This document shows, piece after piece, positions 5,867 to 12,102 of a DNA stretch of 64,000 bases (the stretch's first letter is position 1; each line of letters opens with the position of its first letter). Origin of the DNA: a virus. The position numbers were made by a program, and so were the translations under genes. Where the stretch lies: the IMG/VR virus record IMGVR_UViG_3300034108_000145, positions 62,001 to 126,000 of that record. The stretch is one strand, 5' to 3'. The notes under the pieces were generated by a model. The model saw only the letters and a list, made by a program, of their open reading frames with translations, did not search any database and was not told the DNA's origin.

Positions 5867-6699
5867 TAATGCTTAGCTTTTAATTTATCTCTGTTATCTT
5901 CTAACCAATGTAATAAACTAATCACCTCAGACTTCATATATGGAATACTGTATTGAACAATGTCTTTCACTATAGGATTGCCACTAGTATCTAAAGCTGT
6001 AATAGGATTACCAAACTTATCTGTACCTACGGTTTCAAATAGAATATGATGAAGCACTAATGTACCTGGTTTAAGTCTTGGGTTGTGCTTTAAAATAATA
6101 TACATGTACATACTAAGTTGTAATGTATAGTGGTTTAAATTACAATCATCCAAATGAGCTACAGGAGCAGCCATTCTATCTACCTTTCCTTCCCAGTTGG
6201 TATAACCCTCAGACTTAATTTCTTTATTAGTCTTGTAGTCTGTAATATGCACTTCTCCGTTAATCACTTCTACAAGATCTGACTGACCACATAAGCCAGC
6301 AGATTTTAAATATACCATGTGCTCTGGATAGACACCGTTAGTAAGCTTTTGTAAAGGAGCTTGTTTAATACCGTCTGTTTCTACAGGCTTAAACACTGGT
6401 ACGACATGACCATGACGTTCCATTGTTGTAAGCTCGCATATATCTTTTTCTCTGCAGTTGTGATACCATGTTCCAAGATCTGTTGCACGTTTAGCTTCTG
6501 CTGCCCATGCATCTTTAATTTCTTCAGGTGTCATACCATACCATTTAGACTTCTTTGATTTAGAAGACTTAGCAGCAATAACATCTGATTCAAATGGTTT
6601 CTTGAAGTTAGAAATAAAACTTGTTACAGATATCCAATCTGTAAGGTCTGTTGCATCTACACTTCTATACTTGTGATTCTGTGGTGTGAAAACTATCAT
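5866..6699 (-). CDS. PD-(D/E)XK nuclease (RecB/Cas4-like)
   Basis: A protein of 277 residues. The segment GLCGQSDLVEVINGEVHITD followed by YKTNKE (about residues 135-160) is the GxxD...(D/E)xK signature of RecB-type PD-(D/E)XK nucleases. A Gln-containing helix (LQLSMYMYIL, near 192-201) matches motif QxxxY of that family. Such enzymes degrade or process DNA ends. It starts 4 bp before the end of its upstream neighbour and shares one base with the downstream gene, so it is operonic. A role in recombination or host DNA breakdown is inferred. No Cys cluster for a Fe-S centre is evident, which argues against a full Cas4/AddB type. Confidence 0.75.
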   Translation of the reverse strand: MIVFTPQNHKYRSVDATDLTDWISVTSFISNFKKPFESDVIAAKSSKSKKSKWYGMTPEEIKDAWAAEAKRATDLGTWYHNCREKDICELTTMERHGHVVPVFKPVETDGIKQAPLQKLTNGVYPEHMVYLKSAGLCGQSDLVEVINGEVHITDYKTNKEIKSEGYTNWEGKVDRMAAPVAHLDDCNLNHYTLQLSMYMYIILKHNPRLKPGTLVLHHILFETVGTDKFGNPITALDTSGNPIVKDIVQYSIPYMKSEVISLLHWLEDNRDKLKAKH

Positions 6700-9636: not shown

Positions 9637-9672
9637 AGGCATACGAGGGAAAACTCTCGTATGCCTTTTTTT
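9637..9672 (+). terminator. Rho-independent terminator
   Basis: Stem GGCATACGAG (9638-9647) pairs perfectly with CTCGTATGCC (9656-9665) and is followed by seven T residues. It ends the transcript of the 95-residue gene. Confidence 0.92.
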
Positions 9673-10035
9673 ACCTCTTTTTAGTTTATCAGTTTATATC
9701 AGTTCAGTTTATCCTAGTATCATCATATCAACCTTTAACCCACTAAAAAATGATTGGACTTATTCTGACTGACGGAACAATCACTATGGTCTCTTCTATG
9801 ATAGAAGCTGCCACAGTGGCTGCGAGTATACGCCAAGCGTAGCTCACGTCCACGGTTCTACGTTATCCGTGTCAAATAAAACGTTGATTTTCAAACAGTT
9901 ACGTGTGTATCTGTTAGTGGTAGTAACACCTACCTACTATCTTTCATCCAACTCTTAGAGCCAAATAACTGACCTAGTCAGACGGATAAGATAGCTATAA
10001 CTCTTTGTATTCATTCACTCCTTAAATATTGTCTT
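9673..10035 (+). other. Gene-poor interval with inverted repeats
   Basis: About 360 bp with at most one tiny reading frame (9750-9842). Inverted repeats such as CACGG/CCGTG near 9,858-9,875 and a GTAG/CTAC hairpin near 9,924-9,937 indicate RNA structure after the small frame. No promoter was identified with confidence. Confidence 0.4.
9750..9842 (+). CDS. Possible 30-residue peptide
   Basis: The frame starts with ATG after an A-run leader (CACTAAAAA) like those of neighbouring genes and encodes MIGLILTDGTITMVSSMIEA plus ten more residues (AT.. ending IRQA). It is too short to judge by composition and could be chance. It is listed because the start context matches its neighbours. Confidence 0.3.
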   Translation: MIGLILTDGTITMVSSMIEAATVAASIRQA

Positions 10036-10539: not shown

Positions 10540-10802
10540 TGTTTAATCTAGGTTGTTGGTGTATTCCTTGGAAACCAACCAGCGTTAGTCAGTATGTCCT
10601 GTATTTACAATCTGACACCATGAAACCCAAACGATATTCCCTGCAAAGGGTTACTGGAATTGTAGGCCAACCAGTGTAATATAAAACCAACCTTCTGATG
10701 ACACCAAAGTGTTAGCCCTAGAAGCGGGGCTTAGTAGAGATATAATGCGAAGTGAAACTCTACTATGTTTTCCATTACACACAAACCCTAAAATCATTCA
10801 AT
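10540..10802 (+). ncRNA. Structured non-coding interval
   Basis: No gene is seen. Inverted repeats are frequent: GTTGGT (10555-10560) with ACCAAC (10574-10579), AGCCC with GGGCT near 10,713-10,731, and a perfect 7-bp pair AGTAGAG (10733-10739) / CTCTACT (10758-10764) directly before the next gene's leader. It also carries GTTAGTCAGTATGT (10584-10597), repeated exactly at 13603-13616. It may be a small RNA or a long structured 5' leader of the next gene. Confidence 0.4.
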
Positions 10803-11108
10803 ATGAGAAAGTCAGAACTATACGCTAGATATGATATGTTTAATCAAGACATAGAAGAGATTGACATGTCAGAGTTTCACGACCACTTTGTTCAAGAGAA
10901 TAAAGAGTTTATTTCTTTTATAGATCAGGATAGTACAAACATTACAACTATCAGACTAGACGGTTGTAAGTATATGAAGTATGCTTCACACTGGAATGTT
11001 GGCTGGCAAGGCGACATAGATGGTGATGTATTCTATTGTAAGATAAAAACTATGACTGAGAAAGAGACAGAAGAATTGAGACAGTTACTTACGTCAGATG
11101 CATTTTAA
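10803..11108 (+). CDS. Hypothetical acidic protein, 101 residues
   Basis: The start at 10803 (MRKSELYARYDMFNQ) is preferred to an ATG-like extension upstream because the shared leader CTAAAATCATT lies four bases before it, the same spacing as at 9343. The protein is acidic, with a strand-rich C-terminal half (WNVGWQGDIDGDVFYCKIKT). Its function is unknown. Confidence 0.65.
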   Translation: MRKSELYARYDMFNQDIEEIDMSEFHDHFVQENKEFISFIDQDSTNITTIRLDGCKYMKYASHWNVGWQGDIDGDVFYCKIKTMTEKETEELRQLLTSDAF

Positions 11109-11869
11109 CAAGATTTAGTGGTGAACTGGGCCTGTTGTGGGTCTGGTTCACCTTAAAATATTCTCCTTTGGAGACTCGGCCGCTTATGGTCGTTAGGATA
11201 AACCTGGTGACAGGTATATAAGGTGTGCGTAAACAAGCGTATCATCTACAGCTTTGTGCTGGCCATGTAAGCAAGCAAGCAACGATTGCAATGGGGAAAT
11301 CTCTGAGCAATTACAGTGTTAGCATACACTGTTGAGTGGGAAACCACAATAGGACAACTTGTAGAATATATGTGAGAGCTCTTTACCAAGAGAGCAATTG
11401 CGTTATTCAGTGAGCAATAGGTGCGGTAACAGCATCTGTTTTTCACCGTAGACTGGTAATCTACACTGGGGCGTTGTAGTACGCATTCCTCAAAAGGGAG
11501 TGAGCTGCAATCTAATGGCACGTCCTGGATTATGCTATTGTAAAAATTAATCTAATTAATTTAACGAAAGTCTGTTAGTTCTCTAGGTCAAAGTACCTTA
11601 TCTGTATGAAATATGACAGCACAGCCAGTACCGTAAGGAAAACTGTGAGATGGCAAGAGTATATCTAAGTAGCTGCAGGGATGTAGCTAAGGATCATCCA
11701 ATCCACTTGGTAGAAATTAATATCTATGTAGTCTAGAGAGAGATCCCTCAGGAGTGAGGCAAAACACTGGTACTATCATCTACAATGGAGTAATCTATTG
11801 TGTGTATAAGCGGGGGTAACCCTGTGAAAACGGTGATACACTAAAGGTCAACACTCAGCCTATTAGTAT
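11109..11869 (+). ncRNA. Large structured non-coding region, candidate giant phage RNA
   Basis: This 760-nt stretch has no credible gene but many hairpins. These include GGTGAAC/GTTCACC (11120-11162), ACCTG-GTGA-CAGGT (11202-11215, GNRA tetraloop), ACAGTGT/ACACTGT (11323-11342), CTCTT-TACC-AAGAG near 11,380, GTAGA/TCTAC and GCGT/ACGC near 11,450-11,485, TAGCT/AGCTA near 11,672, CCTCA-GGAG-TGAGG near 11,750 and GGG-GTAA-CCC near 11,816. A tRNA-like sequence follows at its 3' end. Large ornate phage RNAs of the GOLLD and ROOL type are known to sit beside tRNA genes. Membership in either class cannot be tested by eye. Confidence 0.55.
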
Positions 11870-11939
11870 AATCAGGTAGCTTAATGTAAAGCATCTAACG
11901 ATTAATTAGAAGACGTGGGTTCGAGTCCCATCCTGGTTA
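11870..11939 (+). tRNA. tRNA-like gene, anticodon unclear (ATT by position)
   Basis: Acceptor AATCAGG (11870-11876) pairs with CCTGGTT (11932-11938). D-stem GCTT/AAGC has a short 6-nt loop, the anticodon stem is TCTAA/TTAGA with 7-nt loop CGATTAA, and the T-arm is GTGGG-TTCGAGT-CCCAT. Counting gives anticodon ATT (Asn), but position 33 is G rather than the near-universal T, and the D-loop lacks the GG pair. CCA is not encoded. It is either a degenerate tRNA or a tRNA-like 3' domain of the preceding structured RNA. Confidence 0.65.
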
Positions 11940-12102
11940 CAAAACCGGCATTGTTAACTGTTTTATGAGATTGGTGTTACTCATCTAGAAATCCTCCCTA
12001 TAGAAGTGTCTGCAGCACCATATGTATAATTGGATTTAAACATTAACAATGCGGTTTTACCTTTTAAACTATTTACACATCACTTAAAAAAATTAATCCA
12101 TC
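11940..12102 (+). other. Short interval after the tRNA-like gene
   Basis: About 160 bp with no gene. CGGCATTGTTAA near 11,944 and a TTAACAATGCGG-type complement near 12,043 form an inverted repeat (arms AACCGGCATTGTTAA / TTAACAATGCGGTTT with one mismatch), which would fold the interval into one long hairpin domain. Confidence 0.45.

Follow-up and report, generated by a model that had tools for sequence, protein, structure and literature searches.

The cages built by GOLLD RNAs exceed a ribosome in size. The GOLLD env-38 has been found by cryo-EM to assemble as a 14-mer cage, in which the P21 region closes two half-shells, joined by the self-complementary kissing loops L21a and L21b (PMC12286853). 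In phages, GOLLD is found close to tRNAs and is expressed more strongly during lysis (PMC12286853 and work cited there). The RNA described here is located in a 64,000-nt stretch of viral DNA (the window), part of an IMG/VR record of 129,765 bases. The terminase of this phage matches PHROG 6681 (terminase) and exhibits 24–26% identity to the terminases of human-gut crAss-like phages; the phage is a freshwater relative of the crAss phages. We consider it likely that the locus is best explained as a diverged GOLLD of a crAss-like phage, the 3' end of which would be released at a tRNA-like element by RNase P. GOLLD was not found in relatives with terminases 85–90% identical to that of this phage (L012, L014, L023 and L031, in records of 92–128 kb), and its distribution is therefore patchy.

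Between a gene ending at position 11108 and the tRNA at 11870, the plus strand of the window (11109–11869) carries no gene that survives comparison with homologs, in keeping with the ~760 nt without a gene described in an earlier sequence-only reading of this DNA. The longest open reading frame, of 91 aa on the minus strand, is interrupted by stops in the homologs; a coding region was rejected on this ground, and the check for translation products that the same reading had suggested comes out in favour of RNA. The plus strand folds at -261 kcal/mol (z = -5.2), with none of 20 dinucleotide shuffles folding as well, and the minus-strand fold is no better than shuffles (z = -0.9), so that a minus-strand RNA was also rejected. 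RNAalifold on the homolog alignment yields 34 helices, most of them with compensatory changes, well above the at least nine hairpins first proposed, and the predicted two or three GNRA-type tetraloops number at least three (GUGA in 11203–11214, GAAA in 11336–11347 and GUAA in 11812–11823). The region 11114–11866 is a non-coding, highly structured RNA of ~750 nt that was previously unannotated. Its features are given in Table 1.

Table 1. Features of the GOLLD-class RNA and its neighbour in the window, and examples of a scaffold RNA from other loci.
Feature	Position	Strand	Basis
GOLLD-class RNA, whole unit	11114–11866	+	End-to-end profile matches in many loci, full-length covariation, fold z = -5.2
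5' domain, outside the Rfam model; starts with long hairpin 11114–11157	11114–11465	+	Alignments of 10 and 21 homologs, compensatory changes in most helices
GUGG-GAAA-CCAC hairpin, like L11a (GAAA) of env-38	11336–11347	+	Loop invariant in 21 homologs; PMC12286853
3' domain, RF02032 model 1–416	11466–11861	+	cmscan, 81 bits, E = 3.7e-21
UCAAAAG hairpin loop as in GOLLD consensus	11490–11496	+	Rfam alignment; near-invariant in homologs
AU-rich variable linker; env-38 counterpart is the disordered linker inside the cage	11540–11566	+	Sequence, variable in homologs; role by analogy, PMC12286853
Pseudoknot 5' strand AGUACC	11592–11597	+	Covariation; partner 11769–11774
Pseudoknot 3' strand GGUACU	11769–11774	+	Covariation; partner 11592–11597
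Terminal hairpin CUAAAGG / CCUAUUAG, contains conserved CUCAGCC	11841–11866	+	U-run (terminator) follows in several homologs, absent here
3-nt linker; predicted RNase P cut 11869/11870	11867–11869	+	Sequence; inference
tRNA-like element, tRNA-Asn-derived, G33, A34, short D-loop, no encoded CCA	11870–11940	+	tRNA model score, loop comparison
Scaffold RNA, examples	L229:2026–2149, L233:9333–9430, L250:6307–6448, L260:446–601, L287:3714–3848/4770–4838/4934–5101	+	
Scaffold RNA, examples	L315:5130–5251, 6171–6339	-	

Covariation was assessed on the alignment of 10 sequences used for RNAalifold, the 21-sequence alignment being too gappy and the MAFFT alignment imperfect for more distant sequences. 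Across the 186 predicted pairs, 95.4% of cells pair and 91 pairs change on both sides, a result equalled in none of 500 shuffles; this bears out the covariation among homologs that had been called for. Pairing falls to 36–43% when partners are slid by 1–3 columns, a control in which the structure is favoured by having been derived from the same 10 sequences and for which the Rfam match described below is the independent check. These data show strong selection on base pairing in this RNA. That the region is not a functional RNA, being either coding or neutral with chance hairpins, has practically no probability left: the 91-aa reading frame is present on the minus strand, but its breakage in homologs and a covariation far exceeding that of shuffles already refute this reading. 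In a structure-independent search for covarying helices in 21 sequences, the helix AGUACC/GGUACU ranked third, and it is a pseudoknot because it crosses P17. Its strands read ACCAUC/GAUGGU and AUAGCG/CGCUAU in homologs; counted by alignment columns, four of the six pairs show double changes, L229 and L248 being offset by one column in this part. The Rfam consensus also has complementary letters at these sites (the junctions after P17 and before P23), and the Rfam covariance model is of a kind that cannot score a pseudoknot.

A cmscan run, as the sequence-only reading had suggested, matched GOLLD (RF02032) under permissive filters over positions 1–416 of the 416-position model at 81 bits. When all Rfam families were scanned, ROOL did not match at E ≤ 10, and ROOL and the other Rfam families were rejected. 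This score is below the GOLLD gathering cut-off of 150 bits, which is a curator's threshold and no structural feature, and a default Rfam scan therefore reports only the tRNA. IMG/VR homologs with the same 3' end score 72–134 bits against the GOLLD model, and canonical GOLLDs retrieved by consensus pattern score 150–323 bits; the subfamily is thus connected to the GOLLD family through bridging homologs. The Rfam model covers the 3' domain only. With the full 750 nt as a profile, end-to-end homologs were recovered from many additional loci, and the 5' domain therefore belongs to the RNA unit. Other searches were less productive: the pattern TCAAAAG..GCACG..AAAGTCT gave mostly chance matches, none of the named phages and plasmids compared by blastn showed a GOLLD homolog, so that no named phage is known to carry this RNA, and a pattern search of genome contigs returned three matches, of which only L382 was GOLLD-like.

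By these comparisons the window RNA is almost certainly a member of the GOLLD class. The earlier choice between a new family and a diverged GOLLD- or ROOL-like member of the giant structured RNAs thus appears to resolve to a diverged GOLLD, neither a new class nor ROOL, on the full-model match, the covariation, the bridging homologs and the phage context. The helices of the 3' domain are backed by covariation in the window RNA's own homologs. The UCAAAAG hairpin loop and the CUCAGCC terminal hairpin both match Rfam GOLLD, and it is this match alone that counts, since many homologs were retrieved by the exact word GGTCAACACTCAGCC, the conservation of which is by construction. In the P21 region, one hairpin is inserted and one is missing relative to the GOLLD consensus, and the contacts that close the 14-mer are for this reason not to be assumed here. 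The GAAA loop of the 5' domain is invariant in 21 homologs and its stem covaries; it may correspond to the GAAA loop L11a of env-38. A separate large RNA class that resembles GOLLD in the 3' domain only is very improbable. It would fit the score of 81 bits against a cut-off of 150, the altered P21 region and a first hairpin in the window clade unlike that of other homologs, but the model is matched end to end with E = 3.7e-21, the homologs have bridging scores, and the UCAAAAG loop, the pseudoknot and the CUCAGCC end are held in common with GOLLD.

The tRNA-like element scores 57.6 bits, above the Rfam cut-off, and forms a cloverleaf in which the acceptor, anticodon and T stems are all complete. 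The anticodon loop, CGAUUAA, has G33 and A34, and the D-loop is short by one of G18/G19; the unusual position 33 and D-loop noted earlier are therefore real. Lak phage tRNA-Asn(GUU) has U33 and G34 at the corresponding positions, and the features of a functional tRNA-Asn (GUU anticodon, U33 and G18G19) are absent from the element. It is the only tRNA in the 129,765-base record, and there is no tRNA island here. The sequence was not found elsewhere in IMG/VR apart from a near-identical contig, so that a single population (L002/L139) accounts for the element. The closest homologs outside this population (L091/L120 and L138/L174) have the whole RNA with no tRNA at that spot, and most GOLLD homologs likewise lack the element. 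On these comparisons the tRNA-like element is best regarded as a separate, swappable module outside the conserved RNA. An RNA "ending in a tRNA-like domain" is thus accurate as a description of the DNA but not of the conserved RNA, and the boundaries first drawn hold overall, except that the RNA proper stops at the terminal hairpin (11866). Directly 3' of the element, at 11941–12060 (+), an inverted repeat (AAAACCGGCATTGTTAA / TTAACAATGCGGTTTT) surrounds ~85 nt; it folds with z = -3.0 and was found in the same population only.

The ends of 54 distinct GOLLDs were compared, with a U-run defined as at least 6 T in 8. A U-run is present at 21 of the 54 ends, and in L091, L120 and L174 the terminal hairpin followed by a U-run is an intrinsic terminator by sequence. 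Modules abutting the end comprise a tRNA or tRNA-like element at about +6 to +10 after CAGCC (the window, L394, L402, L401 and L419), a Pistol ribozyme (L214/L251 by Rfam matches, L336 by eye from the sequence) and a new scaffold RNA at +7 to +12 (eight loci, the copy in L235 being diverged). A U-run is found at 1 of 15 ends with an abutting module versus 20 of 39 without (Fisher p = 0.004; 0.008 to 0.016 after dropping loci with selection bias or weak calls), the p-value being no more than a guide, as the sequences are related. An abutting module and a U-run seldom occur at the same end, and we infer two routes to a GOLLD 3' end, transcription termination at the last hairpin or processing by a module directly after it.

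The abutting tRNA of other GOLLD phages is mostly an intact tRNA-Met. Four tRNA-Met genes, L402:1594–1669(-), L394:8675–8747(-), L401:4748–4822(-) and L419:4219–4289(-), start ~10 nt after canonical GOLLDs; GOLLD-abutting tRNA-Met genes have a 1:72 mismatch like that of initiator tRNAs and the 3' flank AAGTGACTCC in common. That of L419 is decayed (Rfam 30.5 bits, missed by ARAGORN) and sits beside an intact GOLLD. The Pistol ribozymes L251:2050–2111(+), L214:3451–3512(-) and L336 at about 9110–9040(-) start ~5 nt after the GOLLD 3' end, and those of L213, L240 and L260 lie 170–280 nt further on. GOLLD-carrying phages and contigs also contain tmRNA genes (L242:5449–5859(+), L235:2753–3226(-), L394, L395, L404, L406, L412 and L419), in permuted form in L247 and L262. 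Contigs L237, L247 and L262, of 344, 154 and 412 kb with big tRNA arrays, contain a sequence that ends in GGTCAACACTCAGCC preceded by a branched helix, possibly another GOLLD lineage, which gives no Rfam GOLLD match at the gathering cut-off.

RNase P reads the acceptor stem and T-arm of its substrates. The tRNA-like element keeps both, together with an anticodon loop without U33 and a D-loop without one conserved G, and for the window, where the abutting module is tRNA-like, RNase P would be the natural enzyme. In several relatives, the terminal hairpin and U-run would stop transcription; in the window phage, loss of the U-run would let the transcript continue into the tRNA-like element, where RNase P would cut before the acceptor stem and free the GOLLD 3' end 3 nt past the terminal hairpin. 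The element would then be retained as a processing signal and not for decoding. The chances of maturation by RNase P at this site are about even. By analogy with env-38, copies of the RNA would come together by loop-loop and A-minor contacts, forming a closed cage of RNA alone that holds the AU-rich linker in its interior, and the RNA would be made around the time of lysis. Cage formation by the window RNA is reasonably probable; the oligomer could differ or be absent because P21, which closes the half-shells in env-38, differs from the consensus. More tentatively, phages may supply GOLLD 3' ends via interchangeable modules, namely a hairpin with U-run, a tRNA or tRNA-like element for RNase P, Pistol, or the three-way-junction RNA as a possible processing or protecting element, the tRNA here having been stripped of decoding features and kept for that job only.

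It is unlikely that GOLLD and a working or decaying tRNA-Asn are independent neighbours that met by chance in a phage RNA island, with no role of the tRNA for GOLLD. Phage tRNAs come and go, GOLLD is known near tRNA islands, and the decaying tRNA in L419 abuts an intact GOLLD; against this, there is one tRNA in 130 kb here and no island, four distinct cases, each with a different tRNA, share a spacing of +9 or +10 after CAGCC, and the terminator U-run is nearly always gone where a module abuts. Still less probable is a mature GOLLD-tRNA fusion, in which a tRNA-like domain on each cage subunit serves to recruit or sequester a host factor, for example the ribosome or a synthetase. The acceptor stem does begin only 3 nt after the terminal hairpin, tRNAs or pseudo-tRNAs occur inside the linker of other GOLLDs (L385, L405 and L415; Mycobacterium, PMC6582537), and covalent attachment of tRNAs to a cage has been put forward (PMC12286853). 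However, the 3' end is a different place from the linker, a 7-bp acceptor stem with T-arm is expected to be cut by bacterial RNase P, and most homologs are without any tRNA. Release of the GOLLD 3' end by RNase P at the tRNA-like element is thus the reading we prefer.

The window locus is a non-coding RNA island. At 9640–10013 (+), a non-coding-looking stretch between two genes is 80–88% conserved in L200, L120 and L005; its 100 predicted pairs include 8 with double changes in four sequences, and it has no Rfam match. At 10714–10766 (+) lies a second RNA module with no Rfam match, in which a covarying stem that encloses the constant core GAUAUAAUGCGAAGUGAAAC comes after a constant CCCUAGAAGCGGGG hairpin; it is represented by 17 distinct IMG/VR sequences, several of them 7–10 nt upstream of the scaffold RNA. 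The scaffold RNA itself, which has no Rfam 15 match, reads TTAATGCACCA-[hairpin, loop UUCCCAAGG]-CAGTTGTAAT-[insert]-ATTACAACTGAGTGCAGAGGG. The loci fetched contain 119 copies, often abutting GOLLD, and no copy was found in the window phage genome. Its three helices covary across 73 copies (double changes at 16 of 19 pairs, a level reached by none of 500 shuffles) and meet in a three-way junction, and the CCC of the loop might pair with the GGG on the 3' side. A near-constant frame surrounds a hypervariable insert of about 10–200 nt, as in a display or clamp scaffold, by analogy. A role as the DNA-hairpin promoter of a phage polymerase was dropped, given the bipartite form around a variable insert, the RNA covariation and the one or few copies per record. 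Two inserts (L371:12540–12679(+) and L351:10124–10245(+)) contain a tRNA T-arm-like stretch (GGTTCAAGTCC and GGTTCAAATCC), and others are common to different phages (L283/L366, L301/L282 and L275/L353).

These findings place a diverged GOLLD subfamily, missed at Rfam's cut-off, in crAss-like phages. They indicate that GOLLD 3' anatomy is regular, consisting of a terminator or an abutting tRNA, ribozyme or new RNA, and that the long-noted nearness of GOLLD and tRNAs is in part tight and positional. Alongside, two RNA modules absent from Rfam were found, one of them a constant frame around a hypervariable insert. Among known systems, ROOL is also a giant, cage-forming phage RNA near tRNAs, but the window RNA has no ROOL match at E ≤ 10. 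Pistol (RF02679) in L214/L251 likewise abuts the GOLLD 3' end as a cleavage module, a few nt downstream; it is self-cleaving, not tRNA-like, and absent from the window phage. In Mycobacterium aubagnense a degenerate tRNA is also associated with GOLLD, although there the pseudo-tRNA is inside the GOLLD gene (PMC6582537) and that of the window comes after the last hairpin. The window RNA differs from GOLLD RF02032/env-38 (PMC12286853) in its score of 81 bits against the cut-off of 150, its rearranged P21 hairpins, its 5' domain outside Rfam, the tRNA-like element in place of the terminator U-run and its crAss-like phage host, and shares with it a 3' domain over the full model, the UCAAAAG loop, the same-junction pseudoknot, the CUCAGCC end hairpin, two domains with an AU-rich linker and a phage-borne position beside a tRNA.
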